A stretch of DNA of 64,000 nt from Betaproteobacteria bacterium. GTDB lineage: Bacteria > Pseudomonadota > Gammaproteobacteria > Burkholderiales > Usitatibacteraceae. The notes beneath the pieces are model-generated. The model was not told the origin of the DNA. It worked only from the letters and a program-made list of their open reading frames with translations, and did not search any database. The stretch is from NCBI GenBank assembly GCA_016791265.1, contig JAEUMY010000010.1, positions 124,001-188,000 of the forward strand, written 5' to 3'. This document shows, one piece after another, positions 3,774 to 63,603 of this stretch. The position numbers and the translations under genes were made by a program. Position 1 is the first letter of the stretch. Each line of letters opens with the position of its first letter.

Positions 3774-4408
3774 GCATCCTCCGTCTTGCGAATATTCGTA
3801 AGGGTGGGATTGATCCCCACCGGCGCCACCGGCTGAAACGCCGGCATGTCGATGTCCGCGTAGCGCACTTCAAGGATGTCCAGCGACTCCACACCGCCGG
3901 GTGCGACGAGCTGCACCGTGTCCCCCTCGCGCGCCTTGATGAGGCAGCGGGCCAGGGGCGAAATCCAACTGATGTGTCCGCGCGCCGTGTCGATCTCGTC
4001 CACTCCGACGATGGAGACCGTCTGCTCGCGACTGTCGGCATGGGCGAAGGTCACGGTCGCGCCGAAGAAAATCCGCGTCGGGTCGTCGCGGGGAATGCGC
4101 GGGTCCACCACCTCGGCCGCATCCAACCGCTTGTTCAGAAAACGAATGCGGCGGTCGATCTCGCGCAGCCGCTTCTTGCCGTAAAGATAGTCGCCGTTCT
4201 CGGAGCGGTCGCCATTCTTGGCTGCCCACGACACGGTCGCGGTGACCTCGGGCCGCTCGCTGTCCAAGAGCCACCTGAGCTCATCCAGCAGTCGCCGCTG
4301 GCCGCGCGGCGTGATGTAGTTCTTGCTGCCGGCGGGAACGGGCGGCGCGCCAGACTCCAGATCGTCATCCGGGTCCTGATCGGATTCCTTGGTGAATGCC
4401 TTGCTCAT
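3770..4408 (-). CDS. greB: Transcription elongation factor GreB
   Basis: Rescues backtracked RNA polymerase by stimulating transcript cleavage in the secondary channel. The N-terminal coiled-coil finger holds the expected motif (NGDRSENGDYLYGKKRLREIDRR broken here as NGDRSENGDYLYGKK then RLREIDRRIRFLNKRL); the C-terminal FKBP-like domain follows (ISWISPLARCLIKAREGD). At 212 aa it is longer than usual because of an acidic N-terminal extension and a C-terminal tail. The tail encodes TNIRK, a one-mismatch copy of the window's 12-bp palindrome. It is the first gene of the run toward the kinase. Confidence 0.95.
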   Translation of the reverse strand: MSKAFTKESDQDPDDDLESGAPPVPAGSKNYITPRGQRRLLDELRWLLDSERPEVTATVSWAAKNGDRSENGDYLYGKKRLREIDRRIRFLNKRLDAAEVVDPRIPRDDPTRIFFGATVTFAHADSREQTVSIVGVDEIDTARGHISWISPLARCLIKAREGDTVQLVAPGGVESLDILEVRYADIDMPAFQPVAPVGINPTLTNIRKTEDA

Positions 4409-4505
4409 GACTCATCAATCCAGGTGCCGGCCCCCAAGTGTTGGCATAGAATAGACCCACGCACTTGTCCGCCCGCCTCACCCTGACAGCCCAAAGGAGG
4501 CCATT
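4409..4505. promoter_or_regulatory. Divergent promoter region greB / J-like gene
   Basis: This 97-bp gap lies between two divergent starts and must hold both promoters. The right-hand gene has a strong Shine-Dalgarno, AAAGGAGG, about 6 bases before its GTG. No clear operator was recognised. Confidence 0.5.
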
Positions 4506-5857: not shown

Positions 5858-6490
5858 ATGCCGCCAACCGCGCGCCCTGTCACGCCGCATCTTGCCCTGC
5901 TCACCGCCATCGTCGCGCTGGCACTGGTGGCATCAGGCATCAAACCCTTCGACCGCACCACATGGGCGCTGGAAGTGGCGCCGGTGATGGTCGCGCTGCC
6001 GCTCATGTGGGCCACGCGTCATTCGTTTCCACTGACCGCGCTCCTGGCCGCGCTGATCGGGCTGCATTGCCTGGTGCTGATCCTCGGTGGCGCGTACAGC
6101 TATGCGCGGGTACCGCTGGGTTTCTGGTTGCAAGACCTGTTCTCACTCTCACGCAATCCGTACGACAAGATCGGTCACTTCATGCAGGGCTTCGTGCCCG
6201 CGTTGCTGGCGCGCGAGATTCTGCTGCGCGGGCGGCACGTGAACGGGCCGAGGATGGCGGCCTTTCTGTCGATCTGCGTGGCGCTCGCGGTGAGCGCGAT
6301 GTATGAGTTGATCGAATGGTGGGCGGCGCTGGCCCTCGGTCAGGGCGCTGACGAGTTCCTCGGCACGCAAGGCGACCCGTGGGACACGCAGTCGGACATG
6401 TTCCTGGCGCTGCTGGGCGCCACGACGGCGATGGTGTCGCTGGCGCGTTGGCACGACCGACAACTGCGAATATTCGCCAGCCGGCCCTGA
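5858..6490 (+). CDS. DUF2238 (YjdF-like) membrane protein
   Basis: 210 aa with about five to six membrane helices and the conserved DUF2238 stretches YDKIGHFMQGFVPALLARE, MYELIEWW and QGDPWDTQSDMFLALLGA. Function is unknown for the family. The final residues LRIFASRP are encoded by an exact copy of the 12-bp palindrome at 6466, so the element shapes the extreme C-terminus. Convergent with fnr (15-bp gap). Confidence 0.88.
   Translation: MPPTARPVTPHLALLTAIVALALVASGIKPFDRTTWALEVAPVMVALPLMWATRHSFPLTALLAALIGLHCLVLILGGAYSYARVPLGFWLQDLFSLSRNPYDKIGHFMQGFVPALLAREILLRGRHVNGPRMAAFLSICVALAVSAMYELIEWWAALALGQGADEFLGTQGDPWDTQSDMFLALLGATTAMVSLARWHDRQLRIFASRP
6466..6477. repeat. GCGAATATTCGC palindrome copy 1
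   Basis: Exact copy inside the DUF2238 gene, read in the R-I-F-A frame at the C-terminus. Confidence 0.97.
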
Positions 6491-7355: not shown

Positions 7356-7411
7356 TAGCCGGATTGATCAGGCGGTCAAGATGCGGCAACGACCCTATTG
7401 TAACCGCAGCC

Positions 7412-8815
7412 ATGCACGCGACCCTCATTCCGGCTTCCGACCTCGCGATCGACACCGACCTCATCCGGAAGCACGACAAGGCCGGGCCCCGCTACACGTC
7501 CTACCCCACGGCTGACCGCTTCGTCGAAGCCTATGGATCGGCCGAACACGCCGGCTGGCTCGCCGCGCGCAATATCGGCGGGCGCAACCAGCCCCTGTCG
7601 CTCTACATTCATCTGCCCTTCTGCGCCAACATCTGCTACTACTGCGCCTGCAACAAGGTCATCACCAAGGACCATGGCCGCAGCGCCAAGTACGTGAAGT
7701 ACTTGAAGAAAGAAATGGATCTCGTCGCCCGGCAGCTGCAGGGTCGCTCACCTGTGACCCAGTTGCACTGGGGCGGCGGCACGCCCACCTTCCTGTCCGG
7801 TGACGAGATGACCGAGCTCATGGCCATCACCCGCGACCATTTCGAGTTCGATCCGCAGGGCGAATATTCGCTGGAGATCGATCCGCGCAGCGTCTCGCGC
7901 GAAACCTTCGACCTCTTGGGCCGGCTCGGCTTCAACCGCGTCAGCATCGGCGTGCAGGACTTCGAGCCGACCGTTCAGGAGGCCATTCATCGCATCCAGT
8001 CGCGAGATGAAACCCGCGCTGCCATCGAGGCCGCGCGCGCGGTGGGCATGAAGTCGGTCAATCTCGATTTGATCTACGGCCTGCCGCGCCAGACGAGCGA
8101 GTCCTTCGCCCGCACGCTGGACGAGGTCATTCGCCTCGAGCCGGACCGCATCGCGCTGTACAGCTACGCGCACATTCCCACGCTCTTCAAGCCACAGCGC
8201 CGCATCCTGCCCGCCGACATGCCGAGCCCGGAGGCGAAGTTGGGCTTGCTCGTGCAAGCCATCAACACGTTGACCGCGGCAGGCTATGTGTACATCGGCA
8301 TGGACCATTTCGCGCGGCCGGACGACGAGCTCAACATCGCCCGCCGCCAGGGCCGGCTGCACCGCAATTTCCAAGGCTACTCGACCCGCGCCGAGTGCGA
8401 CCTGGTCGCGCTCGGCATCTCCGCCATCAGCCAGGTCGGCCCCGCCTACGCGCAGAACGTGAAAACGCTGGACGAGTACTACACGCTGCTGGACGCGGGC
8501 GAACTGCCCATCGCGCGCGGCGTTGAACTCTCCGCCGACGACGCGCTTCGCCGCGCGCTGATCCAGGCGCTGATGTGCCACTTCGAAGTCTCCATCGAGT
8601 CCATCGAGATCGCCCATCTCATCGACTTCAAGCGCTACTTCGCCGCCGAGCTGGAGTTGTTGGAGGTGTACTGCGCCGATGGCTTGGTGACACTCGACGC
8701 GCAGTGGATCACGGTGACACCGAAGGGTCGGCTCCTGGTGCGGTCCATCGCGATGGCATTCGACAAGTACGTCCGCCAGAGCGCGGAGCGCCAGCGCTTC
8801 TCAAAGGTCATCTGA
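7412..8815 (+). CDS. hemN: Oxygen-independent coproporphyrinogen III oxidase
   Basis: Radical-SAM enzyme that decarboxylates coproporphyrinogen III to protoporphyrinogen IX without oxygen, supplying heme for the neighbouring cbb3 oxidase. 467 aa from ATG 7412. The SAM-cluster motif is C-x3-C-x2-C in LPFCANICYYCACNK; GPRYTSYPTADRF near the N-terminus and LHWGGGTPTFLS follow the family closely. The gene is divergent from fnr and shares its FNR box. An exact palindrome copy at 7860 encodes GEYSL where the family normally has a similar E-(F/Y)-(S/T) segment. Confidence 0.97.
   Translation: MHATLIPASDLAIDTDLIRKHDKAGPRYTSYPTADRFVEAYGSAEHAGWLAARNIGGRNQPLSLYIHLPFCANICYYCACNKVITKDHGRSAKYVKYLKKEMDLVARQLQGRSPVTQLHWGGGTPTFLSGDEMTELMAITRDHFEFDPQGEYSLEIDPRSVSRETFDLLGRLGFNRVSIGVQDFEPTVQEAIHRIQSRDETRAAIEAARAVGMKSVNLDLIYGLPRQTSESFARTLDEVIRLEPDRIALYSYAHIPTLFKPQRRILPADMPSPEAKLGLLVQAINTLTAAGYVYIGMDHFARPDDELNIARRQGRLHRNFQGYSTRAECDLVALGISAISQVGPAYAQNVKTLDEYYTLLDAGELPIARGVELSADDALRRALIQALMCHFEVSIESIEIAHLIDFKRYFAAELELLEVYCADGLVTLDAQWITVTPKGRLLVRSIAMAFDKYVRQSAERQRFSKVI
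7860..7871. repeat. GCGAATATTCGC palindrome copy 2
   Basis: Exact copy in hemN, read in the E-Y-S frame. Confidence 0.97.
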
Positions 8816-8816: not shown

Positions 8817-9593
8817 GTGGCCGACGCCTTGCCGGTGCTGCTCGGCGGCGCCTTGCTGGCCGGCATCGTGTCGGGCGCGCACTGCGGAGCGATGTGCGGC
8901 GGCATCGCCGGCGCGCTGCAGGGGGATGCGAGTATTCGCCTGCACCGTTCGCGGCGGATGGCCATATGGGCCAGTCTCGTCACCGCCTTGCCCCACAACG
9001 CGGGCCGCATCGCGAGCTATGCGCTGGCCGGCGCCGTCGCCGGCGCCGCGGGCAGCGGATGGATCAGTGTTCACGACAGCGCGTGGCTGCGCCAGTCGCT
9101 GTTCGCACTCGCCAACCTGCTGCTCATCGCGCTTGGTGTGTCGCTGATGTTTCGCCGCCAGCTCGCCAACGCGGCCGAGCGTTGGGGCGGCGGGCTGTGG
9201 CGCTGCGTGCGTCCACTGGCCGCGCGCCTGATGACGAACCCCCGACCGTCGCGGCGCGTGCTCCTGGGCTTTCTCTGGGGCGCGATGCCCTGCGCGCTCA
9301 TTTACGCGATGCTGCTGTCGGCGCTGGCTTCGGCCTCCGCCGTCGATGGCGCGCTCTTGATGCTGGCGTTTGGTGTCGGCACACTGCCCAACCTGCTTGC
9401 CATCGGGTTGGCGTGGTCGCTGCCGTCATCAGGCGTCTTGCGAATATTCGCAAGAGACGGCGTGGCCGCGATTCCGTTCAAGGCGCTCGCCGGCGCCGTC
9501 ATGCTGGCCTTCGGCGTTGTCGGCTTGTTTCGCCTGCCGGCACTGGTGCAGTGGCACGGCATGACGACGCTGTGTCATCCGGGGTTGCTGTGA
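8817..9593 (+). CDS. TauE/SafE-like membrane protein of the cco cluster
   Basis: 258 aa, GTG start one base after the hemN stop. About six membrane helices with the cytochrome-biogenesis-type sulfite exporter motifs GIVSGAHCGAMCGGIAGAL and LLGFLWGAMPCALIYAML, whose paired Cys residues resemble those of CcdA/CcoH-like copper or thiol handling proteins. Location between hemN and ccoI supports a role in cbb3 oxidase assembly. It carries one exact palindrome (9440, LRIFAR) and one near copy (8928, ASIR). Confidence 0.85.
   Translation: MADALPVLLGGALLAGIVSGAHCGAMCGGIAGALQGDASIRLHRSRRMAIWASLVTALPHNAGRIASYALAGAVAGAAGSGWISVHDSAWLRQSLFALANLLLIALGVSLMFRRQLANAAERWGGGLWRCVRPLAARLMTNPRPSRRVLLGFLWGAMPCALIYAMLLSALASASAVDGALLMLAFGVGTLPNLLAIGLAWSLPSSGVLRIFARDGVAAIPFKALAGAVMLAFGVVGLFRLPALVQWHGMTTLCHPGLL
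9440..9451. repeat. GCGAATATTCGC palindrome copy 3
   Basis: Exact copy in the TauE/SafE-like gene, R-I-F-A frame; flanks extend it to CTTGCGAATATTCGCAAG. Confidence 0.97.
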
Positions 9594-12088
9594 GCGGCGC
9601 CTGCTTCCACTGCGGCGAGGCCAACCCGCCCGGTGCGCGCTTCAGCTTCGCGGTCGATGGCGCGCCGCGACACTTCTGCTGCGTCGGGTGCCAGTCGGTG
9701 GCGGAGACCATCGTCGAAGCCGGCATGGCGGATTTCTATCGCCGCCGCGAAAGAGCCGGCGTGCGGCCGGGCGCGCGGATCCCTGCCGCGCTGGACCAAT
9801 ACGACGATCCGGCCGCGCAGGCCGCCTTGGCGGTTGACCAGGATCGCGAATATTCGCAAGCCGATCTGCTCATCGACGGCATGACCTGCGCCGCTTGCGC
9901 GTGGCTCGCGGAACGAAGCTTGAAGCGCGTGCCGGGTGTCAAAAGCGCGACGGTGCAGTACGCCACCGGTCGTGCGTGCGTCACCTGGGCGTCGGCGCAA
10001 ACACCGCTGTCGTCGCTCCTTGAAACGCTCGGTCGTGTCGGCTTCGATGCCCGCCCCGCCGACCGCGCGCAAGACCCTGGGCTGGCCCGCCGCGCCGCCC
10101 GCCGTGAACTGCTGGAGTGGCTCGTGGCCGGGCTCGGCATGATGCAGGTGATGATGTACGCCGTGCCGGTGTATCTCGCGCCACCGGGCGAGATCAGCGA
10201 CGAGTTCCATCAACTGATGCGCTGGGCGAGCCTCGTGCTCACGCTCCCGGTGGTGTTCTATTCCGCGCGCCGCTTCTTCGCCAACGCATGGCGCGACCTC
10301 CGCGCCGGGCAGATCGGCATGGATGTGCCGGTGGCCTTGGCACTGGCCCTCACCTTCGCCGCGAGCACCGTGGCGACTCTGACCGGCGAGGGTCATGTGT
10401 ACTTCGACTCGATCACCATGTTCGTGTTTCTGCTGTTGGGCGCGCGCTTTCTGGAGGCCCGCGCGCGACGCCGCGCCGCGCGCGCGATGGAGCGCCTGGC
10501 CCCTGCGCTGCCCCCGCTCGTGGAGCGGCTCACCCGGTGGCCGGCCAGTGAAGCCAGCGAACGCGTCGCCGGCACGCGGCTCGCCATCGGCGACATCATC
10601 CGCATCCCCGCGGGCGGCACCGTGCCCGCCGATGCCGTGGTGCTTTCCGGCACGGGCTTCATGGATGAATCGCTGCTCACCGGCGAAGCGCGTCCAATCG
10701 AGCGCGCACCGGGTGCTGCTGTGCTGGGCGGCAGCCTCAACACCGGCTCGCCGCTCATTGCCCGCGTCACGCGAACGGGTGAAGCGTCCACGCTGGCGCA
10801 GCTGGCGCGTCTGGCGCGGCGCGCCTTGTCAGCGCGCCCGCCGGCGGACGCCCTCGCCCGCGGCCTCGCAGGCGGATTTTCCATCGCCGTGCTGGCGCTG
10901 GCGGCACTCACCTTGTTCCTCTGGTGGCCCGGTGACGCCGCGTTTGAACACGCCGTCGCCGTGCTGGTGGTGACCTGCCCCTGCGCGCTGGCGCTGGCGC
11001 AACCGGCGGCATGGGCCTCGGCTTCGGGCCGGCTTTCGCAATGGGGACTGCTGACCGTCACACCGCGCGCGCTCGATGCATTGAACGGCATCACCGATGT
11101 CGTCCTGGACAAGACCGGCACGCTCACCGAATCGCGGCTCACCTTGGCGGCCGTGAGCGCGACCGGCGGATCAAGCGCCAGCGAGTGCATGGCGCTCGCG
11201 GCGCGGCTGGAAGCGGGTTCCACGCATCCCATCGCGCAAGCCTTTCTCCGCAACGCCGCAAGTTCGCCTTGCGAATATTCGCACGCCCCGATACAGATCA
11301 CGCACGTTCCCGGCCAAGGCGTGGAGGCGACAGTCGACGGCGAACCGGTGCGTCTGGGCGGCGAGCGCTTTGTCGCAGCCATCGCCGGGCCCAGCCCGAT
11401 GACGCCCATCGCGGACAAGCTCGCCATCCGCATTCACCTCGGCAGCACCAAGGGCTGGCTGGCGAGTTTCGTACTCACGGCGCCGCTCCGCGCCGATGCT
11501 TCCGCCGCCGTCGCCGCGCTCGGCCGTGCCGGCATCGACGTTCACCTGCTCTCCGGCGACGACGACCGCGTTGCGCGACAGGTGGCCGGCCTTGCGAATA
11601 TTCGCAATGCGCGCGGCGGAGTCCTCCCCGATGAGAAGCGCGCCTACGTCGCCGCGCTGCAGGCGAAAGGAAAGCGCGTTCTCATGGTTGGCGACGGCTG
11701 CAACGACGCGCCCGTCCTGGCCCAGGCCGATGCGGCCATCGCGCTGGCCGAGGGCCGCGATGGCGCCGATCTGGCGCGCGCGCAAGCGGATCTGCTGCTG
11801 ACGTCCGGACGGCTCTCGCGCATTCCAATGGCGCTCAGGCTTGCGGACGCCTCGCGCGGCGTGATGCGCCAGAACCTCGCCTGGGCGCTCGCCTACAACC
11901 TCTGCTCGGTGCCGCTCGCGATGGCAGGGCTGATTCATCCCTGGGTCGCGGCGCTCGGCATGTCGGCGAGCTCGCTCCTGGTGGTCATGAACGCCGCGCG
12001 CCTGCTGGAGTTCTCACCGGAAGGCGACGCAGTCCACCGGGCGCCTGACACCCTGCTCGCCGCCGCGGTACCCGCCGGCGACGACTGA
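9590..12088 (+). CDS. ccoI: Cu+-exporting P1B-type ATPase for cbb3 assembly
   Basis: 832 aa P-type ATPase (FixI/CcoI), which pumps copper across the inner membrane for cbb3 oxidase maturation. GTG start overlaps the previous stop (GTGA). Visible in order: an N-terminal zinc-ribbon-like Cys block (CFHCGE, CCVGC), a heavy-metal domain with GMTCAAC, membrane helices, the TGE actuator loop (LLTGEARPIE), the ion-binding CPC (VTCPCALALAQP), the phosphorylation motif DKTGTLTE, and VGDGCNDAPVL. Remarkably it carries three exact palindrome copies in two reading frames (REYSQ, CEYSH, LANIRN), all in loops or variable cytoplasmic parts. Confidence 0.96.
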   Translation: MSGACFHCGEANPPGARFSFAVDGAPRHFCCVGCQSVAETIVEAGMADFYRRRERAGVRPGARIPAALDQYDDPAAQAALAVDQDREYSQADLLIDGMTCAACAWLAERSLKRVPGVKSATVQYATGRACVTWASAQTPLSSLLETLGRVGFDARPADRAQDPGLARRAARRELLEWLVAGLGMMQVMMYAVPVYLAPPGEISDEFHQLMRWASLVLTLPVVFYSARRFFANAWRDLRAGQIGMDVPVALALALTFAASTVATLTGEGHVYFDSITMFVFLLLGARFLEARARRRAARAMERLAPALPPLVERLTRWPASEASERVAGTRLAIGDIIRIPAGGTVPADAVVLSGTGFMDESLLTGEARPIERAPGAAVLGGSLNTGSPLIARVTRTGEASTLAQLARLARRALSARPPADALARGLAGGFSIAVLALAALTLFLWWPGDAAFEHAVAVLVVTCPCALALAQPAAWASASGRLSQWGLLTVTPRALDALNGITDVVLDKTGTLTESRLTLAAVSATGGSSASECMALAARLEAGSTHPIAQAFLRNAASSPCEYSHAPIQITHVPGQGVEATVDGEPVRLGGERFVAAIAGPSPMTPIADKLAIRIHLGSTKGWLASFVLTAPLRADASAAVAALGRAGIDVHLLSGDDDRVARQVAGLANIRNARGGVLPDEKRAYVAALQAKGKRVLMVGDGCNDAPVLAQADAAIALAEGRDGADLARAQADLLLTSGRLSRIPMALRLADASRGVMRQNLAWALAYNLCSVPLAMAGLIHPWVAALGMSASSLLVVMNAARLLEFSPEGDAVHRAPDTLLAAAVPAGDD
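9846..9857. repeat. GCGAATATTCGC palindrome copy 4
   Basis: Exact copy in ccoI, E-Y-S frame, just before the heavy-metal-binding domain. Confidence 0.97.
11271..11282. repeat. GCGAATATTCGC palindrome copy 5
   Basis: Exact copy in ccoI, E-Y-S frame, in the variable part of the nucleotide-binding domain. Confidence 0.97.
11594..11605. repeat. GCGAATATTCGC palindrome copy 6
   Basis: Exact copy in ccoI, A-N-I-R frame, flanked as TTGCGAATATTCGCAA. Confidence 0.97.
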
Positions 12089-15543: not shown

Positions 15544-15690
15544 GGGGTAGGCGGGAGGCGGAAGGCGGGAACTGGGCGGGTCGAACGCTGCGAATATTCG
15601 CGAGAATCCTTGGCCCGGTGAACCGGAAGCGGTGGAACCGCTAATGTCGGCCCTCCGCCTACCGCCTCCCGCCCTTCGCCTCCCCAAACA
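15542..15690. repeat. GC-rich inverted repeat around a palindrome, ccoP-ccoG gap
   Basis: The gap holds GGCGGGAGGCGG-rich arms near 15549-15570 and complementary CCGCCTCCCGCC-rich arms near 15655-15685, with an exact palindrome copy between them. It could form a large hairpin that reduces read-through from ccoP into ccoG or stabilises upstream mRNA. Confidence 0.6.
15590..15601. repeat. GCGAATATTCGC palindrome copy 7
   Basis: Exact intergenic copy between ccoP and ccoG. Confidence 0.97.
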
Positions 15691-18582: not shown

Positions 18583-18594
18583 GCGAATATTCGC
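18583..18594. repeat. GCGAATATTCGC palindrome copy 8
   Basis: Exact copy filling most of the 21-bp gap between two convergent stop codons; flanking GCTGA/TCAGC lets it form a larger hairpin, so it may act as a bidirectional terminator. Confidence 0.95.
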
Positions 18595-21448: not shown

Positions 21449-21460
21449 GCGAATATTCGC
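21449..21460. repeat. GCGAATATTCGC palindrome copy 9
   Basis: Exact intergenic copy upstream of the DUF4336 gene. Confidence 0.97.
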
Positions 21461-23467: not shown

Positions 23468-24040
23468 TTAGGGCGCTTTGCATGCACTTGCAACCCTTTG
23501 ACTAATTTTCTCAGCAAGTTCCTGCGACTCACGCACAAGAAATTGCACACGTTCCCAGTTCTGCCAATGCGCTGACCAAGCCTCTTCTCCGATGACAGCC
23601 TCAAAGTCAATCTTGGTTGGGACATTCCATTTTTCGTAAGCCTCCAGACGCCGCATTCTTTCGGCGACGTCCCGAACTCCGCGCGCGGTTGGTGACAGCT
23701 TGGCTGTGGAGGTCATCCAAGATTTCCACTCCCTGTTCCCCTTTGATTGGTTGCACTTGCCGCAGGACGGGACCAGGTTGTGGATTTCGGAGATGTAGCC
23801 AGTTGGCTTCTTGTCTTTGACGAGCGGTCGAAGGTGGTCCCATTCGGATGCGACCGCACCACAGTAGGCGCACTGAAGTGTGTCTGGTGTCATGCCGAGA
23901 ATTTCCAACGCTTGTTTCACGTCCTTGGCGGTTGGTGGGACAACTGGAATGATCGAGTTGATGAAGGCGTTCGTGATGCTTGATGATCGCCCGGTGATCT
24001 TCATCGGAGTTGGCATCCAGAAAAGCGATAGATAGTTCAT
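23468..24040 (-). CDS. HNH endonuclease domain protein
   Basis: 190 aa. The HNH/Zn motif is clear: C-x2-C in LQCAYCGAV, the catalytic EWDHLRPLV, and NLVPSCGKCNQSKGN with the second Cys pair. The N-terminus (residues 1-55) and the C-terminal helical region (110-190) have no recognised domain. It could be a restriction-like nuclease or a mobile-element homing nuclease. No methyltransferase partner is nearby. It sits among cassette-like genes. Confidence 0.88.
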   Translation of the reverse strand: MNYLSLFWMPTPMKITGRSSSITNAFINSIIPVVPPTAKDVKQALEILGMTPDTLQCAYCGAVASEWDHLRPLVKDKKPTGYISEIHNLVPSCGKCNQSKGNREWKSWMTSTAKLSPTARGVRDVAERMRRLEAYEKWNVPTKIDFEAVIGEEAWSAHWQNWERVQFLVRESQELAEKISQRVASACKAP

Positions 24041-24046
24041 TGGGCC

Positions 24047-24110
24047 GCCTCTCGTTTGAGAGCAGGCTGCGGCCCCTTAGGGTCGTCGCGCCTGCGGTGA
24101 ATGGTTATGC
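24047..24110 (-). other. Degenerate integron attC-like site
   Basis: On the minus strand GCATAAC (24104-24110) overlaps the TAA stop of the DUF3024 gene, is followed by an imperfect hairpin (GCAGGC...CCCTAAGGG...GCCTGC) and ends near CTCAAACGAGAGGC, which resembles the usual CTCAAACGTTAGGC end of an attC with a damaged core. Confidence 0.4.
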
Positions 24111-24371
24111 ACTAACGCGCCAGCCCCAGAAACACCCGTAGGGATCAGCATTGATCTCCGCGACCACTTCTTCGATTGAGCGGACCTCTCCGCTGCCGCG
24201 CCACACCGGCCGAACTTCGAATATCTCAACGCTCTGGCCCTTAACCCGAAAGCCCAGGTCGACTTGTTTTCGGATATTCGGTGGTGGCCGTCGATTGGCA
24301 ACGAATGCACCCACAACCTTCTCCACCCGCTTGGCTTCAAATTCACTTAACACGATGCGTCCTTTGAACAT
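24105..24371 (-). CDS. DUF3024 family protein
   Basis: 88 aa from the ATG at 24371. The DUF3024 pattern is visible: EFEAKRVEKVVGAFVANRRP at the start, QVDLGFRVKGQSVEIFEVRP in the middle, and a W-rich end (YGCFWGWRVSA). Function is unknown. The stop codon lies inside a GCATAAC heptamer, a hallmark of cassette genes. Upstream in-frame codons to 24467 are possible but overlap the CPBP gene. Confidence 0.8.
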   Translation of the reverse strand: MFKGRIVLSEFEAKRVEKVVGAFVANRRPPPNIRKQVDLGFRVKGQSVEIFEVRPVWRGSGEVRSIEEVVAEINADPYGCFWGWRVSA

Positions 24372-24463
24372 AACGCGCAGGTTCAGCAGCGGACCGTCCG
24401 CTGCAACGGGTTGTCCGGCCGCACCGGAAAACTCCAGTCGACCCAAAGGCAAAGCCCGCCACA

Positions 24464-30539: not shown

Positions 30540-30571
30540 CAGATGTGGCCGGCTTGCGGCGGACTCATTCA

Positions 30572-43607: not shown

Positions 43608-43619
43608 GCGAATATTCGC
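43608..43619. repeat. GCGAATATTCGC palindrome copy 22
   Basis: Exact intergenic copy just 3' of the ORF6N gene. Confidence 0.97.
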
Positions 43620-46407: not shown

Positions 46408-46483
46408 CGACCGGACAATCAGGGTTGGAGGCGACGAAGTATGCCCACCTTGCACCCAGTGCGCCGAGCCAGACGTTGTGGCG

Positions 46484-47149
46484 TCATCGTTCCGACAGAA
46501 TCTCCGTGAGCGGCTTCCTCTGGATCGCGGGCACGCGGCAGCCCTCCGCCGGATACCCCGCCACCAGCAACAGGAAAGGCCGCTCGTTGTCCGGCCGACC
46601 CATCAGCTGATTGAGAAATGCCATCGGGCTTGGCGTGTGGGTCAGTGTCGCGAGACCCGCGTGGTGCAGCGCCGCGATAAGCATGCCAGTGGCGATGCCG
46701 GCCGAGTCCATGGGGTAGTAGCGCTTTTCCTTGCTGCCATCCGCCGCCACACCATGCGCTTCATAAAACACACCGATGAGCCAGGGCGCTGTCTCGAGAA
46801 ACGGTTTGTCCGCATCCGTGCCCAGCGGCGCCAGCGCGGCCTTCCACGCGTCCGTCGCGCGACGCTCGTAGAACTCGCGTTCCTCGGCCTCCGCCGCGAT
46901 GCGGATATCCCGCTTCAGCGCGGGGTCGCCGACCAGGACGAAGCGCCACGGCTGCTGATTCGCGCCGGAAGGCGCCGTGCCGGCCGTGGCGATGCAGGTA
47001 TGCATGATCTCGCGGGGCACCGGGCGGGTGGAGAACTCGCGCACCGTGCGCCGCGTGGCCATCTCGGCATGAAAAGCCCGGGCGCGGGCCAGCATGTCAT
47101 CTTGCGAATATTCGCAATGGTCGAGGGGAATGCTGTCGTGCGGTTTCAC
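46484..47149 (-). CDS. Nitroreductase family protein
   Basis: 221 aa from the GTG at 47149 (alternative TTG at 47194 adds 15 residues). FMN nitroreductase fold: [60 protein letters not shown], and [20 protein letters not shown]. It resembles iodotyrosine deiodinase-like and BluB-like nitroreductases. The palindrome at 47104 encodes HCEYSQDD near the N-terminus, where relatives have a similar Y(S/P) segment. Confidence 0.9.
47104..47115. repeat. GCGAATATTCGC palindrome copy 24
   Basis: Exact copy in the nitroreductase gene, E-Y-S frame, with flanks TTGCGAATATTCGCAA. Confidence 0.97.
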
Positions 47150-47220
47150 GTTGTGGACAGGCCCGTCGGCCCGTTGCGGTTGGAGACAGCGCAATCATGC
47201 CGCAAGCGGCGCGGCAGGGT

Positions 47221-49654: not shown

Positions 49655-49845
49655 AGGAAGAAGCTTGAGAAGGTCCAACCAGATTTATCATGCAAAGATG
49701 CATGATAACCACCCTTCACGCGTGATAACAAACTACCTGAAAGCTACCCCAAGCTATTGAGTTGACAGCGAATACTCGCGGGAGCCGCAATTCATTTCTT
49801 TGATAACAACACGCGCGCCGGCAAATCATCTGCCGCCTCAACCCC
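49655..49845. promoter_or_regulatory. TIR promoter region with inverted repeats
   Basis: 191 bp of low-G+C sequence with a strong inverted repeat and further TTATCA half-sites; also a one-mismatch palindrome copy (GCGAATACTCGC, 49768). Confidence 0.6.
49685..49708. promoter_or_regulatory. Operator-like inverted repeat before TIR gene
   Basis: Perfect arms TTATCATGCA and TGCATGATAA separated by four bases, 31 bp upstream of the ATG, plus another related half-site CGCGTGATAA at 49719. This is the shape of a repressor or CRP-like site. Confidence 0.65.
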
Positions 49846-53900: not shown

Positions 53901-53930
53901 GCCGGCACAGCGAATATTCGCCGTGCCGGC
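53901..53930. repeat. 30-bp extended palindrome, likely hairpin
   Basis: The 12-mer at 53910-53921 is flanked by GCCGGCAC and GTGCCGGC, forming a 30-bp inverted repeat with one mismatched pair, located just 3' of the 53997-54554 gene. It may act as a terminator or as a protein-binding site. Confidence 0.85.
53910..53921. repeat. GCGAATATTCGC palindrome copy 25
   Basis: Exact copy at the centre of the 30-bp inverted repeat. Confidence 0.97.
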
Positions 53931-56339: not shown

Positions 56340-56351
56340 GCGAATATTCGC
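56340..56351. repeat. GCGAATATTCGC palindrome copy 26
   Basis: Exact copy between the MDR stop and the small membrane protein start. Confidence 0.97.
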
Positions 56352-57343
56352 TAACGCTTCGGCACCACCAATATCTTGCCGTCACGCTCGCCCGCGACCG
56401 CCGCAGCCACCGCCGCCTGGATGTCCTTCACGTCGAACGTCCGCGCCACCTTCGCGTGCAGCTTGCCCTTGGCGATGAGCGTGGTCAGCTCGCCATAGAG
56501 CGCCATTTGCTGCTCGCGGGTCGCCAGCTTGAACCACTTGGCCAGCCAGAATCCACGCAGGGTGATGTCGTTGAACACGAAATTCTTCGGCGACACCTGG
56601 CAGGGCTCGCCACTCATCATGCCGTAGTTGACCAGCGTTCCGCCGTTGACCAGGCAGCTTGCCAGGCGATCCGTGGCGCTGCCGCCGACGGCATCGATGC
56701 CGAGGCGAATATTCGCACCACCGGTCGCCTCCTTGACCCGCTTGGCCAGCCCCGGCCCATCGACCAGCACCACGTCGCCGCCCTGCGCCTTCACCCCTTC
56801 GACGGCCGACTGGCGCCGCACGATGTTGACCGTCTTCCACCCGCGAATATTCGCAAGCTGGATGAGATAGGACCCGACGCCGGAATTGGCCACGTTCTGG
56901 ATGATCCACTCGCCCGGTTCCAGCTTCACGAACTCGGTCAGCATGAGCGATGCGGTGGGCGGATTCACGGTCAGCATCGCGAGCTGCTGCGGATCGGCAT
57001 CATTGGGCAGCGGGATCAGCTTCGCTGCGGGCAAGACGATATGCGTGCTCCAAGTGCCGCTGCTGACCGGCAACAGAACAGTCTGGCCCACCGGCAGCTT
57101 GGTCACGTCATCAGCCACCTTCGCCACCCGGCCGACACCTTCGGCGCCGCCGATGGCCGGCAGCGGCGGCAGCATGCCGTATTCACCCGTGAGCGTCAGC
57201 ACGTCGGAGGGATTGATGGGCGCCGCCAGCACCTCGACCAGTACCTGGCCGGGTTGCAGATCAGGGATCGGCATCTCGACCGGGGCGATCACATCCTGCG
57301 GCACGGGGCCGCGTTGTTCGTATTGCGCGCGAATCATGGTCAT
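56351..57343 (-). CDS. MDR family zinc-independent quinone/2-enoyl reductase
   Basis: 330 aa from ATG 57343. Medium-chain dehydrogenase/reductase of the MECR/ETR-like branch: VEVLAAPINPSDVLTLTGEY, GGAEGVGRVAKVADDV, WIIQNVANSGVGSYLIQLAN in the NADPH-binding Rossmann fold. The usual structural-zinc cysteines are absent. Likely reduces 2-enoyl thioesters or quinones. It carries two exact palindromes 138 bp apart, both read A-N-I-R (LANIRG inside the cofactor-binding helix and GGANIRL). Confidence 0.9.
   Translation of the reverse strand: MTMIRAQYEQRGPVPQDVIAPVEMPIPDLQPGQVLVEVLAAPINPSDVLTLTGEYGMLPPLPAIGGAEGVGRVAKVADDVTKLPVGQTVLLPVSSGTWSTHIVLPAAKLIPLPNDADPQQLAMLTVNPPTASLMLTEFVKLEPGEWIIQNVANSGVGSYLIQLANIRGWKTVNIVRRQSAVEGVKAQGGDVVLVDGPGLAKRVKEATGGANIRLGIDAVGGSATDRLASCLVNGGTLVNYGMMSGEPCQVSPKNFVFNDITLRGFWLAKWFKLATREQQMALYGELTTLIAKGKLHAKVARTFDVKDIQAAVAAAVAGERDGKILVVPKR
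56705..56716. repeat. GCGAATATTCGC palindrome copy 27
   Basis: Exact copy in the MDR gene (GANIRL). Confidence 0.97.
56843..56854. repeat. GCGAATATTCGC palindrome copy 28
   Basis: Exact copy in the MDR gene (LANIRG). Confidence 0.97.
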
Positions 57344-57373
57344 GTCTGGTCTCTTGCGAACGGGTTCAACATC

Positions 57374-57447
57374 GTAGCCCGGATGGAATGCAAGGGAATC
57401 CGGGGGGCAGTGCGGTCCCGGATTCCGCTGCACTGCATCCGGGCTAC
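57374..57447. repeat. REP-like inverted repeat
   Basis: Arms of about 31 nt: GTAGCCCGGATG... and ...CATCCGGGCTAC, with GGGAATCCGGG / CCCGGATTCC inside. This sequence family is common between proteobacterial genes. It lies 3' of the DUF885 gene, upstream of the MDR gene, and a one-mismatch palindrome (GCGATTATTCGC, 57454) follows it. Confidence 0.85.
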
Positions 57448-57469
57448 GCCTTTGCGATTATTCGCAACC

Positions 57470-59287
57470 TCACTTCAGTCCGTAGAACTTTTTCTGTCCC
57501 GCGATCCACTCCTCGATCAGCTGATCCAGCACATCCAGCGGCAGTGAGCCGTTGTCGAGTACCGCGTTGTGGAACTTGCGCAGGTCGAACTTCTCGCCCA
57601 GTGCGGCCTCCGCCTTCCTGCGCAACGCCTTGATGCGCAGTTCACCGATCTTGTACGAAAGCGCCTGGCCCGGCCAGACGATGTAGCGGTCAGTCTCGGC
57701 TTCCGCAAACGCACGGGTGATGCCGGCGTAGTCGACCAGGTACTGGATGGTCTGCTCGCGTGTCCAGCCATAGGCATGCAGGCCGGTATCCACCACCAGA
57801 CGTGCCGCGCGATGCATCTCGGCGGAGAGGCGGCCGTAGTAGGAGTACAGGTCGTCGTAGAAGCCCATTTCCTCGCCGAGATACTCCGAATACAGGCCCC
57901 AGCCCTCGCCGAACGCACTATAGCCGCCGTACAGGCGCTGGTTGGGCAGGCCCTTCAATTCCTGCTGGCGGGCATTCTGCAGGTGATGGCCGGGCACGGC
58001 TTCATGCAGCAGCACGGCGGCCATCCAGTGCTTGGGCCGGGTGCGTGGATCGTTGGTATTCGCCTCGAAGTAGCCCGCGCGTGAACCGTCAGCCGCGCCG
58101 GAGTTGTAGCGCTCCGGGTTGGCGCCCTCCGAGGCATCCATCGGACGGATGCCGTACGGCAGGCGCGGCAGCTCGGTGAAGTACTGCGGCATCAACGCAT
58201 CCGCGCGCTTGGCGAGATCGCGGTAGTAGCCCAGCATCTCGGCCGCCGTCTTGAAGAAGTTGAAGTCTGCTGTGTTGAGGTGCTGGTTGAAGGCCACGCG
58301 ATCACCTTTGAAGCCGATCTTGGCGATGGTTTTGTCCATCTCGGCGCTGATTCGCTTCACTTCAGCGAGCCCCAACTCATGCACTTCCTTGGCAGTCATG
58401 CGGGTCGTGGTGGAGTCGGCCACGAGCATGTCGTAGTAGCGCGCGCCGCCCGGCAGCTTGCCAGCCGCCAGTTCGGTGCGGGCACCCGGCAGATAGGTGT
58501 CACGCAGGTACTTCTGCAAGCGCAGAAAGGCAGGATTCACCTTTTCCCCCACCGCAGCCCGACCCTGCTCGGCCAGACGCTTCCTGTCCTCCTCGCGAAT
58601 ATTCGCAGGGAAACGGGTGAACGGCGCGAACATGGGATGCTTGTCCACATCGGCCGAGATGAATTGGTTCAGCATGTCCGGCACGCGGAGCATCGCCGCG
58701 CGCGGCGCGACCCAGCCGGATTTCAAACCGAGTGACAGCCACGCCTCCGTTTGCTGCAACTGGGTGGGCAGGGCATTCAGGCGCTGCAGGAAATTCTCGT
58801 AGTCCGTCACATTGCGAAACGGTGTCGTGCGCAACAGCATGCCCCACGTGCGATTGGGACCGTGCATCGGCGAGATCGGCAGCCAGCCGTCGCCGAATCC
58901 GCCGGCGAAAGGCAGATCGCCGAACATCGCGCCCTGCTCGATCTGCCGGCCCCAGCCGTACATCATGATGTCGTACGAGATGCGCTCCTGACCCTGCAGC
59001 TCCTTGGCGTCGATGGCTTTCAGACGCTCGTGGAAGCGCTTCATCTGGGCCTTGCGCGCCTGCGCCGCAGCGACACTCATGTCGCGTAGTTGATCGTTGT
59101 AGCGATGGTCGCCACGCATGGTCGCCGACTCGGGACTCTCGCGGGTCTGCCATGCCCAGTGCTCGTTCAAGAGCGTGTGAAGCTGCAGGCTGGGGGTGTT
59201 CTTCACCACGGGCGACAGCGCCGGGGCAGCGAGCGACAGCGACAGCAAGCCAGCGGCGAGGCCGGGCAGCATCAGTTTGCGCAACAT
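57470..59287 (-). CDS. DUF885 family exported metallopeptidase-like protein
   Basis: 605 aa, signal peptide LMLPGLAAGLLSLSLAAPAL. DUF885 signature: an HEXXH-type motif VLLHEAVPGHHLQNARQQEL, GYSAFGEGWGLYSEYLGEEM and the helix-rich remainder. Members of this family are predicted zinc carboxypeptidase-like enzymes of the outer periplasm. One exact palindrome at 58595 (PANIRE). Confidence 0.92.
   Translation of the reverse strand: MLRKLMLPGLAAGLLSLSLAAPALSPVVKNTPSLQLHTLLNEHWAWQTRESPESATMRGDHRYNDQLRDMSVAAAQARKAQMKRFHERLKAIDAKELQGQERISYDIMMYGWGRQIEQGAMFGDLPFAGGFGDGWLPISPMHGPNRTWGMLLRTTPFRNVTDYENFLQRLNALPTQLQQTEAWLSLGLKSGWVAPRAAMLRVPDMLNQFISADVDKHPMFAPFTRFPANIREEDRKRLAEQGRAAVGEKVNPAFLRLQKYLRDTYLPGARTELAAGKLPGGARYYDMLVADSTTTRMTAKEVHELGLAEVKRISAEMDKTIAKIGFKGDRVAFNQHLNTADFNFFKTAAEMLGYYRDLAKRADALMPQYFTELPRLPYGIRPMDASEGANPERYNSGAADGSRAGYFEANTNDPRTRPKHWMAAVLLHEAVPGHHLQNARQQELKGLPNQRLYGGYSAFGEGWGLYSEYLGEEMGFYDDLYSYYGRLSAEMHRAARLVVDTGLHAYGWTREQTIQYLVDYAGITRAFAEAETDRYIVWPGQALSYKIGELRIKALRRKAEAALGEKFDLRKFHNAVLDNGSLPLDVLDQLIEEWIAGQKKFYGLK
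58595..58606. repeat. GCGAATATTCGC palindrome copy 29
   Basis: Exact copy in the DUF885 gene, A-N-I-R frame. Confidence 0.97.
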
Positions 59288-59306: not shown

Positions 59307-60539
59307 TCACTGAATGGCCGATTCCAGCGCTGAAATCAGCCGATCGATTTCCTGCATCGAATTGTAGTGGGCGACGGATACTCTCACGACCCCGCCATGC
59401 GCCGCATTGATCCCGAGCGCCTCGCACAAATGGCGCGCGTAGAAATCGCCGAAGCGGATGCCGATCCCGTGCGGGTCCACGGCGCGCACGATGTCTTCGG
59501 AGCGCCTGCCGTGGACGACGAAGCTGATGGTGGGCATGCGGTCGCCGTCACGCACTTCCGGGCGGCCGATGACGCGAATATTCGTCTTTGTCGCAAGCCA
59601 GCTCAGCAGCCGCTCCGCCAGCACATCCTCATGCCGCGCAAAGACGTCGAACGCATGCTGCATGCGCTCGCGCCGCGACCCGCTCGCGCCAAACGACGTG
59701 CCCATGTCCACGAGATAGTCCGCGATGCCGGCGCAGCCATGCGAGAGCTCGAAGTTCACGTTACCCGGCTGCAGCTTGTAGGGCAGCACGTCGGACCCGA
59801 TGAAAAAGTGGTTGATGCCGGGCAGCGATTTCAACAGCTCATGCCGACCCCACAAGAGCGCATAGTGCGGCCCGAACACCTTGTAGAAACTGAACACCAC
59901 GATGTCCGCGCCGCTCGCCTGCACGTCCACCAGCCGGTGCGGCGCATACGCCACGGCGTCCACCGCCAGGCGCCCGCCCACCGCATGCACGCGCTTCGCC
60001 ACCTCGGCCACAGGGTTCACCGTGCCCAGCACGTTGGACGCCCAGGTCATCGCCACCCACTTGGTGCGCGGTGACAGCAGCTTGTCGAGTTCAGCCAGAT
60101 CGAGTTCCAGCGTCTCGCGATTCACCTTCCACATCTTCACCACCGCGCCAAAGCGCTCCAGCCGCTTCCAGCCGCCGATGTTGGCCTCGTGGTCCGTCTC
60201 GGTGACGATGATCTCGTCGCCGGGCTGGATAACATAGGAGAGTGCGCTCGTGAACTGGAACATGAGCCCGGTGGTCGAGCCGCCCATGACGATTTCCTCG
60301 TCATGGACTGCATTGACCATCTCCGCGATGGCCCGACGCGCGGCCAGCACCTTTTCGCTCGCGGCTTGTGACACGGCATAACTCGCGCCGAGCTGCACGC
60401 TCGTAGTGGTGAGGTAGTCGCGGATGCGATCCGCGACCCGGCCCAGCACCTGCGAACCGCCGGCGTTGTCGAGGAAGACGAAGCCGGAGGCGAGGGAGGG
60501 GAATTCGGCGCGGACTTGGGAGAGTTGTGATGGGGTCAT
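59307..60539 (-). CDS. Cysteine desulfurase-like aminotransferase class V protein
   Basis: 410 aa PLP enzyme. FVFLDNAGGSQVLGRVADRI at the N-terminus, ATP-like TETDHEANIGGWKRLERFGA, the catalytic Lys in VVFSFYKVFGPHYALLWGRH and LQPGNVNFELSHGCAGIADY. The class matches cysteine-desulfurase-like (CsdA/SufS-type) proteins but lacks an obvious catalytic Cys loop, so it may act on other amino acids. A one-mismatch palindrome (59574, TNIRV) lies in it. Confidence 0.88.
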   Translation of the reverse strand: MTPSQLSQVRAEFPSLASGFVFLDNAGGSQVLGRVADRIRDYLTTTSVQLGASYAVSQAASEKVLAARRAIAEMVNAVHDEEIVMGGSTTGLMFQFTSALSYVIQPGDEIIVTETDHEANIGGWKRLERFGAVVKMWKVNRETLELDLAELDKLLSPRTKWVAMTWASNVLGTVNPVAEVAKRVHAVGGRLAVDAVAYAPHRLVDVQASGADIVVFSFYKVFGPHYALLWGRHELLKSLPGINHFFIGSDVLPYKLQPGNVNFELSHGCAGIADYLVDMGTSFGASGSRRERMQHAFDVFARHEDVLAERLLSWLATKTNIRVIGRPEVRDGDRMPTISFVVHGRRSEDIVRAVDPHGIGIRFGDFYARHLCEALGINAAHGGVVRVSVAHYNSMQEIDRLISALESAIQ

Positions 60540-61360: not shown

Positions 61361-62017
61361 TCACCAAACCTTCAACTTCACCTGCACGGCCACCGCCCCC
61401 GACATGCGGTTGGGAATATCCGGCAGCACGGAGAAATTCACGCCCAGTCGGCCCTTCTCCACCGACATCACGGGCATCGCCGCGGGAAACCACTTGCCAT
61501 TCTTGTAGCGGGGATAACCGTCGAACGCGCCGGCGATCACGCCTGCGCTGACCTTCGCACCCGCCACATCCCATGACCACGGCCGCCAGTGCCACGCGAC
61601 GTAGCGCGTGCGCTCGCGCTCGCTGTTGATGAACGAGCCGGCCAGTGCCGAGTGCTCGGGTGCCAAGCGCACCTCCGCACCAAAGCCCCAGTTCTTCTCG
61701 CGGTAGTTGAGGCCGCGGTCGAAGTGGCGGGAGTAGATGCCGGGGTTGACCCAGACTTCGGGCTTGAAGTCCTGAGCTGAAAGCGGCATGCCAATGAGTA
61801 GCGCAAGAGCAAGCAGTGCATTGCGAATATTCTCAATCTTGCATCCCCCTTTGCAAAAGGGGGATTGAGGGGGATTTGCTCTGGTCGCAACCCCGAGAAA
61901 TCCCCCCTGCCCCCCTTTTGTAAAGGGGGGAATTGACTTCCCATCGGCGTTCAGCGGCGGTGCTCGGCGATCATCGGTGTCAGGCTTTTCAATCCCGCGA
62001 ATATTCGCATGGCCCAT
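61361..62017 (-). CDS. Outer-membrane beta-barrel-like protein with odd N-terminus
   Basis: 218 aa if started at ATG 62017, which shares one base with the upstream stop (TGATG). The first ~60 residues come from a palindrome copy and an inserted repeat (SIPPFTKGGQGGFLG, NPPQSPFCKGG). Only then does a signal-peptide-like stretch appear (NALLALALLIGMPLSAQDF), followed by a beta-rich domain (WVNPGIYSRHFDRGLNYREK, ERERTRYVAWHWRPWSWDVA) like small outer-membrane barrels. The native start was probably lost when the repeat arrived; the gene may be damaged. Confidence 0.62.
   Translation of the reverse strand: MGHANIRGIEKPDTDDRRAPPLNADGKSIPPFTKGGQGGFLGVATRANPPQSPFCKGGCKIENIRNALLALALLIGMPLSAQDFKPEVWVNPGIYSRHFDRGLNYREKNWGFGAEVRLAPEHSALAGSFINSERERTRYVAWHWRPWSWDVAGAKVSAGVIAGAFDGYPRYKNGKWFPAAMPVMSVEKGRLGVNFSVLPDIPNRMSGAVAVQVKLKVW
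61843..61930. repeat. Dispersed two-hairpin repeat
   Basis: Two GC-rich hairpins: ATCCCCCTTTGCAAAAGGGG... at the left and CCCCCCTTTTGTAAAGGGGG... at the right, in inverted orientation. A single half-element occurs at 28555. It has been inserted between the SBP gene and the barrel-protein coding part. Confidence 0.88.
61997..62008. repeat. GCGAATATTCGC palindrome copy 30
   Basis: Exact copy just after the coupled ATG at 62017 (reads HANIRG). Confidence 0.97.
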
Positions 62018-63603
62018 CACGGCAGCTTCGTCCAGTGCGGCACCAGCCAGTTGTCGATGCGATGCACCACCGTCACCCCGGCGCGCGACACCCAGGGCGT
62101 GATCTGGCGGTGCAGCGGCAGGATGAGCGTTTCCTTCTGGATCACGCGCACGGCATCGTTGATGAGAGCGTTCCTCTTCTTCACATCCATTTCCACTTCG
62201 GCCGCGGCGATGAGCTTGTCCAGCTCTTCGCTCTTGAAGTTGCCGTAGTTGGTGTCGCCCCAGCCCTTGTCGTTCAGGCTGTGCAGCACCGGCTTCAGGG
62301 TGAAGATGGCGTCGCGCGCATTCGACCCCCAGCCCTGCATGCAGGCGGAGAATTCCTTCTTCGGCGTGCGCTGGAAGTACTGGGCCTTGGGCATGGCATC
62401 GACCGTGACCTTGAGCCCGATCTTGGCCCACATGGCGGCGAGTGCGATGCAGATCTTCTCGTCGTTGACATAGCGGTCGTTCGGGCAATGCAGGGTGAAG
62501 CCGAAACCGTTGGGATAACCGGCGTCCGCCAGCAGCTTTTTCGCAGCGTTGAGGTCCAGCGGCAGGCGCTTGTCCAAAGCCGGCTCAATGCCCTCACCCT
62601 TCGGATCGGGCAGCGGAATCGCGGTCGGCCGGGAGAGGCCGCGCATCACTGTCTTGTTGATGGCGTTGATGTCGATGGCCTGATAGAGCGCCTGGCGGAC
62701 ACGGCGGTCCTTGAACGGGTTCTTGCCCTTGACGTCGGAGAACAGCAGTTCATCCCGGGCCTGATCGAGCGCGATCATGATGATGCGGGTCTCGTCGCCC
62801 TCCCACACCTTCAGCGCCTTGTCCTGCTTCAGTTGCGCGATGTCCTGCACGGACGGGTCGAGCACGAAGTCGAGCTCGCCGGATTTCAGCGCCGCCATGC
62901 GGGTGGCGCCATTGCCGATGGGCCGGTACTCGACCATTTCCACGTTGCTGGTGAAGCGGCCCTCCTTCAGGCCCCACCAGTTCGGATTTTTCTTGAACAC
63001 GGTTTTCACGCCGGGCTCGTAACTCACGATGGTGAACGGGCCTGTGCCCATGGCGTTGCGCACGGCGAACGTGGGCTCCTTCACGCTGGGGTCTTGCGCC
63101 GCGACCACGTTGTTCTTCTCGGCCCAGGCCTTGGAGAGGATGGGCACTTCGGAGATGTTGGTGAGCGTGACCGGATTGGGTTGCGGCGTGGTGAATTCCA
63201 CGGTGTGCGCGTCGATCTTCTTCGCGGTGCCCACCGGCTGGGCGTAGGTGCGGTATTGCTTCGACTTGGCCGCGCGCTCGAAGGAGAACACGACGTCATC
63301 GGCAGTGAAGTCGGTACCGTCATGCCACTTCACGCCCTTGCGCAGCTTCAGCACCCAGGTGGTGGGGCCCGTGTTCTTCCACTCCACCGCCAGCCCGCTT
63401 TGCAGCGACATGTCCTTGCCGCGGAGCAGCAGGCGCTCGTACACCAGCGCCTGGTTGGACTTGGTGAAACCCTCGTCCTGCCCATGCGGGTCCAGCGTGG
63501 CGATATCGCCCTGCGAAGACCAGCGCAGCGTCTTGGCCCAGGCGGGGGCCGTGGCAGTGAATGGCAGGGTGGCGAGTACCAACAGGGCGAATATTCGCTT
63601 CAT
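62017..63603 (-). CDS. ABC transporter substrate-binding protein (SBP_bac_5 family)
   Basis: 528 aa from ATG 63603. Signal peptide RIFALLVLATLPFTATAPAWA, then the peptide/nickel-type binding fold: LRWSSQGDIATLDPHGQDEG, LVYERLLLRGKDMSLQSGLA, WVLKLRKGVKWHDGTDFTAD and TVLPLLR-like end. It binds peptides or related solutes in the periplasm; no permease or ATPase genes are in the window. The ATG itself lies within palindrome copy 31 context (ATGAAGCGAATATTCGCC). Confidence 0.93.
   Translation of the reverse strand: MKRIFALLVLATLPFTATAPAWAKTLRWSSQGDIATLDPHGQDEGFTKSNQALVYERLLLRGKDMSLQSGLAVEWKNTGPTTWVLKLRKGVKWHDGTDFTADDVVFSFERAAKSKQYRTYAQPVGTAKKIDAHTVEFTTPQPNPVTLTNISEVPILSKAWAEKNNVVAAQDPSVKEPTFAVRNAMGTGPFTIVSYEPGVKTVFKKNPNWWGLKEGRFTSNVEMVEYRPIGNGATRMAALKSGELDFVLDPSVQDIAQLKQDKALKVWEGDETRIIMIALDQARDELLFSDVKGKNPFKDRRVRQALYQAIDINAINKTVMRGLSRPTAIPLPDPKGEGIEPALDKRLPLDLNAAKKLLADAGYPNGFGFTLHCPNDRYVNDEKICIALAAMWAKIGLKVTVDAMPKAQYFQRTPKKEFSACMQGWGSNARDAIFTLKPVLHSLNDKGWGDTNYGNFKSEELDKLIAAAEVEMDVKKRNALINDAVRVIQKETLILPLHRQITPWVSRAGVTVVHRIDNWLVPHWTKLP
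63588..63599. repeat. GCGAATATTCGC palindrome copy 31
   Basis: Exact copy beginning four bases into the SBP gene (KRIFAL), overlapping the ribosome footprint. Confidence 0.97.

Follow-up and report, generated by a model that had tools for sequence, protein, structure and literature searches.

The octamer HIP1 (GCGATCGC) of cyanobacteria is present at 300-2,700 copies per Mb in most of these organisms, and its near-misses are biased to the outermost base (PMC4390886, available part). For the Synechocystis sequence GGCGATCGCC, the accessible text of PMC1939737 gives 5,648 copies vs. 5 expected and, with one mismatch, 1,830 vs. 160, a drop of ~100-fold; the same text puts this first drop, from exact to one mismatch, at 92-fold for the uptake sequence of H. 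influenzae and 82-fold for that of N. gonorrhoeae. The cause of the build-up of HIP1 and of uptake sequences is still argued. The subject of this study is a 12-bp exact palindrome, GCGAATATTCGC, in a stretch of 64,000 nucleotides from a Betaproteobacteria bacterium (hereafter the window; contig JAEUMY010000010.1, positions 124,001 to 188,000 of the forward strand) and in the host genome assembly (G000; 3.94 Mb, 24 contigs, ~90% complete). It offers a new, unrelated, and unusually clean case: the site is exact over 12 bp, relatives divide sharply into those with and those without it, and copies appear to have been gained in place, with apparent precursors. By analogy, GCGAATATTCGC is a clade-specific highly iterated palindrome comparable to HIP1 and the uptake sequences, but its membership in either is not supported.

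The assembly contains 1,624 exact copies of GCGAATATTCGC, i.e., one per 2.4 kb or 412 per Mb, vs. none of the reversed control sequence. A sample of 1,067,576 bases, made up of the window and 51 stretches of the assembly, contained 461 exact copies, where 0.5 were expected from a fifth-order Markov model trained on the motif-free sample and 0.041 from composition; 179 other palindromes with the same composition had a mean of 0.07 copies and a maximum of one. The hexamer AATATT occurred 546 times in the sample, with 461 of these inside GCGAATATTCGC. The excess that the initial annotation noticed in the window is thus genome wide and persists after correction for the sequence background. All 38 copies reported there, 31 exact and seven with one mismatch, were recovered, and its estimate of ~0.002 expected copies in 64 kb agrees with our figure by composition. 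GCGAATATTCGC is the most frequent 12-mer in the window, the next palindromic 12-mers occurring twice each, and 100 dinucleotide shuffles of the window gave a mean of 0.25 and a maximum of two copies at one mismatch or fewer. Outside the motif family, runs of C (183 overlapping C12 words) and repeats of CCCAGCCCCCAG were the most frequent 12-mers in the sample. A literature search of titles and abstract openings found no description of this element, which is in line with the annotation, to which no such element was known; in the papers searched, the string itself turned up only by chance, e.g., in work on colibactin crosslinks.

The annotation also proposed HIP1 as the nearest analogue, and this holds in part. 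Both are highly iterated, lineage-specific exact palindromes found within and between genes, and near-misses lie at the outer base in both. However, they differ in sequence, length, and host: GCGAATATTCGC has 12 bp, an AT-only core, and a genome of 63% GC, whereas HIP1 is a GC-rich 8-mer of cyanobacteria, and homologs of the proteins of the GCGAATATTCGC host (81-94% identity) are labelled Burkholderiales bacterium, which makes this order likely for the host. They also differ in that no orphan methylase was found for GCGAATATTCGC (four families searched, ~90% of the genome). As a separate observation, a relative of the same family (G022, L128-L147) holds 153 copies of the HIP1 octamer in 400 kb, perhaps ten times the composition estimate, in which its CG-rich background is unaccounted for.

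The site occurs in an almost all-or-none manner. Observed-to-expected ratios at zero, one, and two mismatches were 11,185, 37, and 1.9 by composition and 922, 6.0, and 0.7 by the Markov model, so that the first drop is ~299-fold and 155-fold, respectively, steeper than in GGCGATCGCC of Synechocystis and in the uptake sequences. No excess of two- or three-mismatch variants was detected in the sample, where same-composition controls overlap at loads of two to four mismatches; for the same reason, the apparent depletion of two- and three-mismatch variants is not real. Among the 61 one-mismatch copies, the outermost base was altered in 35, and the folded types included A5>G (nine), G3>A (six), T6>C (four), and C2>T (one). 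The spacing of the half-sites is fixed: GCGAA-N2-TTCGC occurs 468 times, whereas spacers of 0-1 and 3-8 give 2-10 copies (1.2 expected by composition), and all 18 symmetric double variants combined gave a single copy vs. the 461 exact ones. The recognised unit consists of the 12-mer and weaker flanks, with A at +1 at a frequency of 0.61 (0.56 in genes, 0.69 between genes), A at +2 at 0.43, and G at +4 at 0.46, all of them closely similar in genic and intergenic copies; columns from +5 outward carry at most 0.02 bits. The extension to TTGCGAATATTCGCAA, described as frequent in the annotation, is real but loose (5 of 31 copies in the window, 54 of 461 in the sample). The information content amounts to 25.7 bits, where 11.2 are needed for 1,624 sites. 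This anatomy calls for a two-fold-symmetric, all-or-none reader and for a force that restores exact copies despite their effects on proteins.

Those effects became visible in comparisons with orthologs. A total of 148 site comparisons, mostly with low-identity ATPases, was reduced to 21 by a threshold of at least 45% identity and a best-hit rule. Twenty of the 21 were ungapped (random places were gapped in 2.8%), and at the aligned place the relatives shared 6.1 of the 12 motif bases (n = 20), compared with 2.98 at places drawn at random from these genes in equal phase (n = 665). Identity at the amino-acid level was 0.385 at motif sites vs. 0.649 at random places. Taken together, the ungapped alignments, the partial matches, and the low site identity indicate that the copies apparently arose through base substitution in place, at variable positions and with changes in amino acids, and not through insertion. 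At the first site in Mfd, apparent precursors could be seen, the peptide being GEYAV in the outgroup, GEYSI in nearer relatives, and GEYSQ in the clade described below. The apparent accumulation by point substitution is a feature shared with uptake sequences, and the steep fall at one mismatch resembles theirs, but it lacks their graded tail.

An inserted or mobile 12-bp element, or an RNA hairpin or terminator copied around the genome, is therefore highly improbable as the source of the copies. As RNA, the 16-mer form of GCGAATATTCGC does fold into a hairpin, albeit a small one (-5.7 kcal/mol), and some copies lie within longer inverted repeats, such as that at 40661 of the window, but insertion is contradicted by the ungapped comparisons, a hairpin by the absence of symmetric base-pair swaps, and both by the uninformative outer flanks and by the 278 of 461 sampled copies inside genes. 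Similarly, GCGAATATTCGC does not belong to the repetitive extragenic palindromes (REP) and bacterial interspersed mosaic elements (BIME), which are extragenic and longer, imperfect palindromes. REP-like palindromes, including an 18-nt repeat of Caldithrix abyssi with 38 exact copies, 25 of them outside predicted coding regions, resemble it in being short, without longer homology, and more frequent in convergent gaps (PMC5317091, available part); they differ from its 1,624 copies, which in the sample are mostly genic.

Retention of the sites was studied in 360 listed homologs of three proteins, i.e., the copper ATPase (CcoI), Mfd, and the YegD-like Hsp70. As the clade we took 13 proteins from close relatives (P0002-P0006, P0008; P0121-P0123; P0241-P0244), in which a motif-compatible peptide was kept at 29 of 34 site-protein pairs, the clade having been delimited after the signatures were seen. 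The residue preceding EYS was always R, S, C, or G in the clade, i.e., a residue with an NGC codon, without exception in the printed regions, although the signature itself requires one of these four. Outside the clade, P0007 and P0009 among 113 more distant CcoI homologs kept only ANIR, one each, and the rest kept none; the signature was found in none of 117 more distant Mfd homologs (nine of them at identities of at least 0.74) and in none of 116 YegD homologs (three at such identities), and the Mfd homologs P0124 and P0125, at 83-84%, lack all three sites. Pooled over eight sites, motif codons in the clade had a conservation of 0.88 vs. 0.69 for their neighbours, and the same positions in the 12 next homologs of each family 0.45 vs. 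0.53; the eight sites were chosen for their presence in G000, a bias that favours the clade. Judged from codons at the protein level, close relatives probably carry the 12-mer as well. No signature was found at new places in the clade proteins of the three families examined, so site turnover seems to be low.

In the other genomes examined the motif is rare. In an order sample of 300 genomes, the host included, it is present in 69; no genome among the other 299 has more than nine copies, and the 27 other genomes of the family have 0-4 copies each; the search of related genomes that the annotation had recommended thus revealed none comparable. In the genome with nine copies (G041), all four places read (L293, L298, L303, L305) lie in TTTTGCGAATATTCGCAAAA, a terminator- or operator-like sequence in AT-rich DNA (31-35% GC in three 3-kb loci). 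When genome_contigs was searched for pairs of copies separated by 100-130 bp, it returned one contig, from Ruminococcus (L046), with a coincidental local 120-bp duplication; about 20 such pairs would be expected in a genome of the density of G000, whose near records were possibly left out.

The elevated outermost-base mismatches could suggest a mechanism as in HIP1, in which an orphan methyltransferase modifies the inner part of the site, and repair directed by this methylation turns near-misses into the palindrome and maintains it. The same bias is known for HIP1, and Elhai's model yields palindromes by stepwise substitution without selection (PMC4390886, available part). Moreover, the change of an inner cytosine to T (folded G3>A), seen six times, is compatible with methylation there. 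However, PF01555 (N6/N4) and PF02086 (D12) methylases had no match in the ~90% complete assembly, and copy-free stretches surround both the only PF00145 (C5) methylase (C21:118.8-120.2 kb; stretch of 9.4 kb) and the only PF02384 (N6_Mtase) protein (stretch of 7.4 kb). The motif-specific methyltransferase for which the annotation had suggested a check therefore has no orphan candidate in these four families, other families being outside the search. Copy-free gaps this long are not unusual (at least 8 kb in 9 of the 409 gaps sampled), and ~10% of the genome is missing, which leaves this mechanism improbable but of some weight; an origin driven by restriction-modification is disfavoured on the same evidence. 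The open reading frames (ORFs) beside the C5 methylase look Vsr-like and restriction-like, without a family call, and this island (C21 at ~116-126 kb; L160, L161-L162) has a GC content down to 0.48 and no motif copies. With no evident orphan methyltransferase, GCGAATATTCGC offers a palindrome that can be viewed separately from methylation, a confounder in the case of HIP1.

Placement along the genome follows sequence tolerance and not regular spacing. According to our own simple gene calls on the sample (846 genes, 80% coding), 278 copies are in genes of either direction, 181 between genes, and two at boundaries, as the annotation had described for the window. Genic copies were read as ANIR (143), xRIFA (70), or xEYSx (65). 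Densities per kb were 1.29 in convergent gaps, 0.90 in same-direction gaps, 0.71 in divergent gaps (176 of the 181 intergenic copies being classifiable), and 0.33 in coding sequence. Spacing was near Poisson (coefficient of variation of gaps 0.96; mean 8.5 and variance 8.8 copies in 49 full 20-kb stretches), with gaps <300 bp slightly scarcer than expected (43 vs. 56, no significance test applied). The three 5-kb bins below 54% GC had a mean of 0.33 copies vs. ~2.2 in the other 209, and the five at 54-58% GC had 2.4, the same as the rest, so a depletion in foreign-looking (low-GC) DNA is only hinted at. Four motif copies were noticed within 190 bp at L027:6571-6759 (contig C2 of G000), among AACTTCAGGGTC-type repeats. 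The copies in the window are as follows (+ and - denote the strand of the gene).

3788-3799: one-mismatch copy GCGAATATTCGT
6466-6477: exact copy, close to the end of the DUF2238 gene (5858-6490, +)
7860-7871: exact copy in the HemN-like gene (7364-8815, +), peptide GEYSL; GEYSI there in a family relative
8928-8939: one-mismatch copy GCGAGTATTCGC
9440-9451: exact copy that probably precedes the true start of the copper ATPase, within the 5' extension of the ORF called at 8894-12088
9846-9857: exact copy in the copper P-type ATPase gene, peptide REYSQ
11271-11282: exact copy in the copper P-type ATPase gene, peptide CEYSH
11594-11605: exact copy in the copper P-type ATPase gene, peptide ANIR
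15590-15601: exact copy, intergenic
18583-18594: exact copy in a gap between convergent genes
21449-21460: exact copy, intergenic
26873-26884: exact copy in the Hsp70-like (YegD) gene (26708-28165, -), peptide ANIR
27110-27121: exact copy in the same YegD gene, peptide ANIR
30271-30282: exact copy in the S41 peptidase gene (29284-30471, -)
30528-30539: exact copy in a gap between divergent genes
30893-30904: exact copy in an ORF (30545-31372, +)
31236-31247: exact copy in the same ORF
32888-32899: exact copy in an ORF (32801-33556, -)
34010-34021: exact copy, intergenic by our gene calls
34838-34849: exact copy, intergenic by our gene calls
36688-36699: exact copy, intergenic
38622-38633: exact copy, intergenic by our gene calls
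40661-40672: exact copy, intergenic, within the longer inverted repeat gcgtcatt-GCGAATATTCGC-aatgacgc
43608-43619: exact copy, intergenic
44290-44301: one-mismatch copy GCGAATATTTGC
46231-46242: exact copy in the TonB-dependent receptor gene (44284-46455, -)
47104-47115: exact copy in the nitroreductase gene (46484-47194, -)
49768-49779: one-mismatch copy GCGAATACTCGC
53910-53921: exact copy, intergenic
56340-56351: exact copy at a gene boundary, overlapping the gene at 56351-57433 by one base
56705-56716: exact copy in the alcohol-dehydrogenase-type gene (56351-57433, -)
56843-56854: exact copy in the same alcohol-dehydrogenase-type gene
57454-57465: one-mismatch copy GCGATTATTCGC
58595-58606: exact copy in the DUF885 gene (57470-59287, -)
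59574-59585: one-mismatch copy GCGAATATTCGT
61823-61834: one-mismatch copy GCGAATATTCTC
61997-62008: exact copy, intergenic
63587-63598: exact copy in the family-5 solute-binding-protein gene (62017-63774, -)

A 3-kb stretch of the window (23626-26707) has neither a motif copy nor a confident gene call.

Exact palindromes read by homodimers include the parS sites of ParB and the Noc-type sites, which are few and near the origin or number a few dozen. It could be that an abundant homodimeric nucleoid protein with SlmA-, Noc-, or ParB-like logic binds at GCGAATATTCGC, and that the site is maintained by selection for chromosome organisation or division occlusion. The two-fold symmetry, the one fixed spacer, and the similar weak flanks everywhere fit a dimer footprint of ~16-20 bp, and sites persist in relatives at the protein level. 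On the other hand, the exactness of the site exceeds what a graded binding site would need, placement follows tolerance with no regular spacing and no surplus of short gaps, and the counts per stretch, taken without regard to contig order, are no more variable than Poisson. ParB itself is rejected as the reader because the only HTH_ParB protein of the assembly has its own canonical parS ~3.4 kb away, and GCGAATATTCGC, unlike parS, is spread over all stretches. A nucleoid protein is considered rather unlikely, though less so than the HIP1-type mechanism.

Placement by tolerance, Poisson spacing, and excess information favour a drive over a placed architectural function and so lead to the reading of GCGAATATTCGC as a self-mark of the uptake or exchange type, recognised by a homodimer, which we advance tentatively, as possible rather than probable. 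Under this reading, copies would be gained by base substitution in tolerated sequence, and one dedicated, putative homodimeric DNA-binding protein would read the palindrome all-or-none. DNA carrying GCGAATATTCGC would be preferentially taken up, kept, or copied, and this preference would drive up tolerated copies and restore broken ones; the benefit could be the recognition of the cell's own kind of DNA, as with uptake sequences. It is more doubtful that the motif is a third independent invention of uptake or exchange sequences, in which one Burkholderiales clade would have a palindromic self-mark, read by an all-or-none homodimer, that overrides codons and amino acids where tolerated and is held across several species. 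In any case, GCGAATATTCGC provides a single bait for finding the reader protein.

Several points weigh against the self-mark. Selection on a chromosome-organising protein would produce much of this anatomy. Half-sites outside full copies numbered 940 vs. 420 expected by composition, a comparison with no Markov control. In the clade, Mfd site 1109 is less conserved than its neighbours and Mfd 151 is level with them, and in the outgroup the core exceeds its neighbours in conservation at two of the eight sites (CcoI 648 and Mfd 1109); moreover, the low turnover need not follow from an ongoing drive. ComEC is present in G000, yet it likewise occurs in 24 of the 27 family relatives, which have no more than 0-4 motif copies, and hence discriminates nothing. 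Being palindromic, GCGAATATTCGC has no direction, unlike the DNA uptake sequences (DUS) and uptake signal sequences (USS). The DUS of Neisseria are not known to be palindromic. The USS of Pasteurellaceae are not palindromic, according to the available part of PMC12616744, and uptake sequences show a graded tail in the accessible text of PMC1939737, whereas the excess of GCGAATATTCGC ends after one mismatch.

Known DUS and USS dialects (strings of 9-12 bases) had 0-3 copies each in the sample and were rejected as its identity; the 7-mer GTCTGAA occurred 58 times, a count given without a chance comparison. Viral spread of the motif was likewise rejected. The paired-motif scan of viral_contigs gave no match, and while the 16-mer was present in 14 viral stretches and the 14-mer in 102, only L166 and L176 (one phage sequence twice) among 83 stretches examined had more than one copy, which is caused by a repeated ANIR peptide. 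The viral contigs G319 (L182, L196, L214) and G320 (L188, L195) carry, three and two times, respectively, a 20-bp palindrome, ATCTGCGAATATTCGCAGAT, which contains the same core and resembles a dispersed phage operator.

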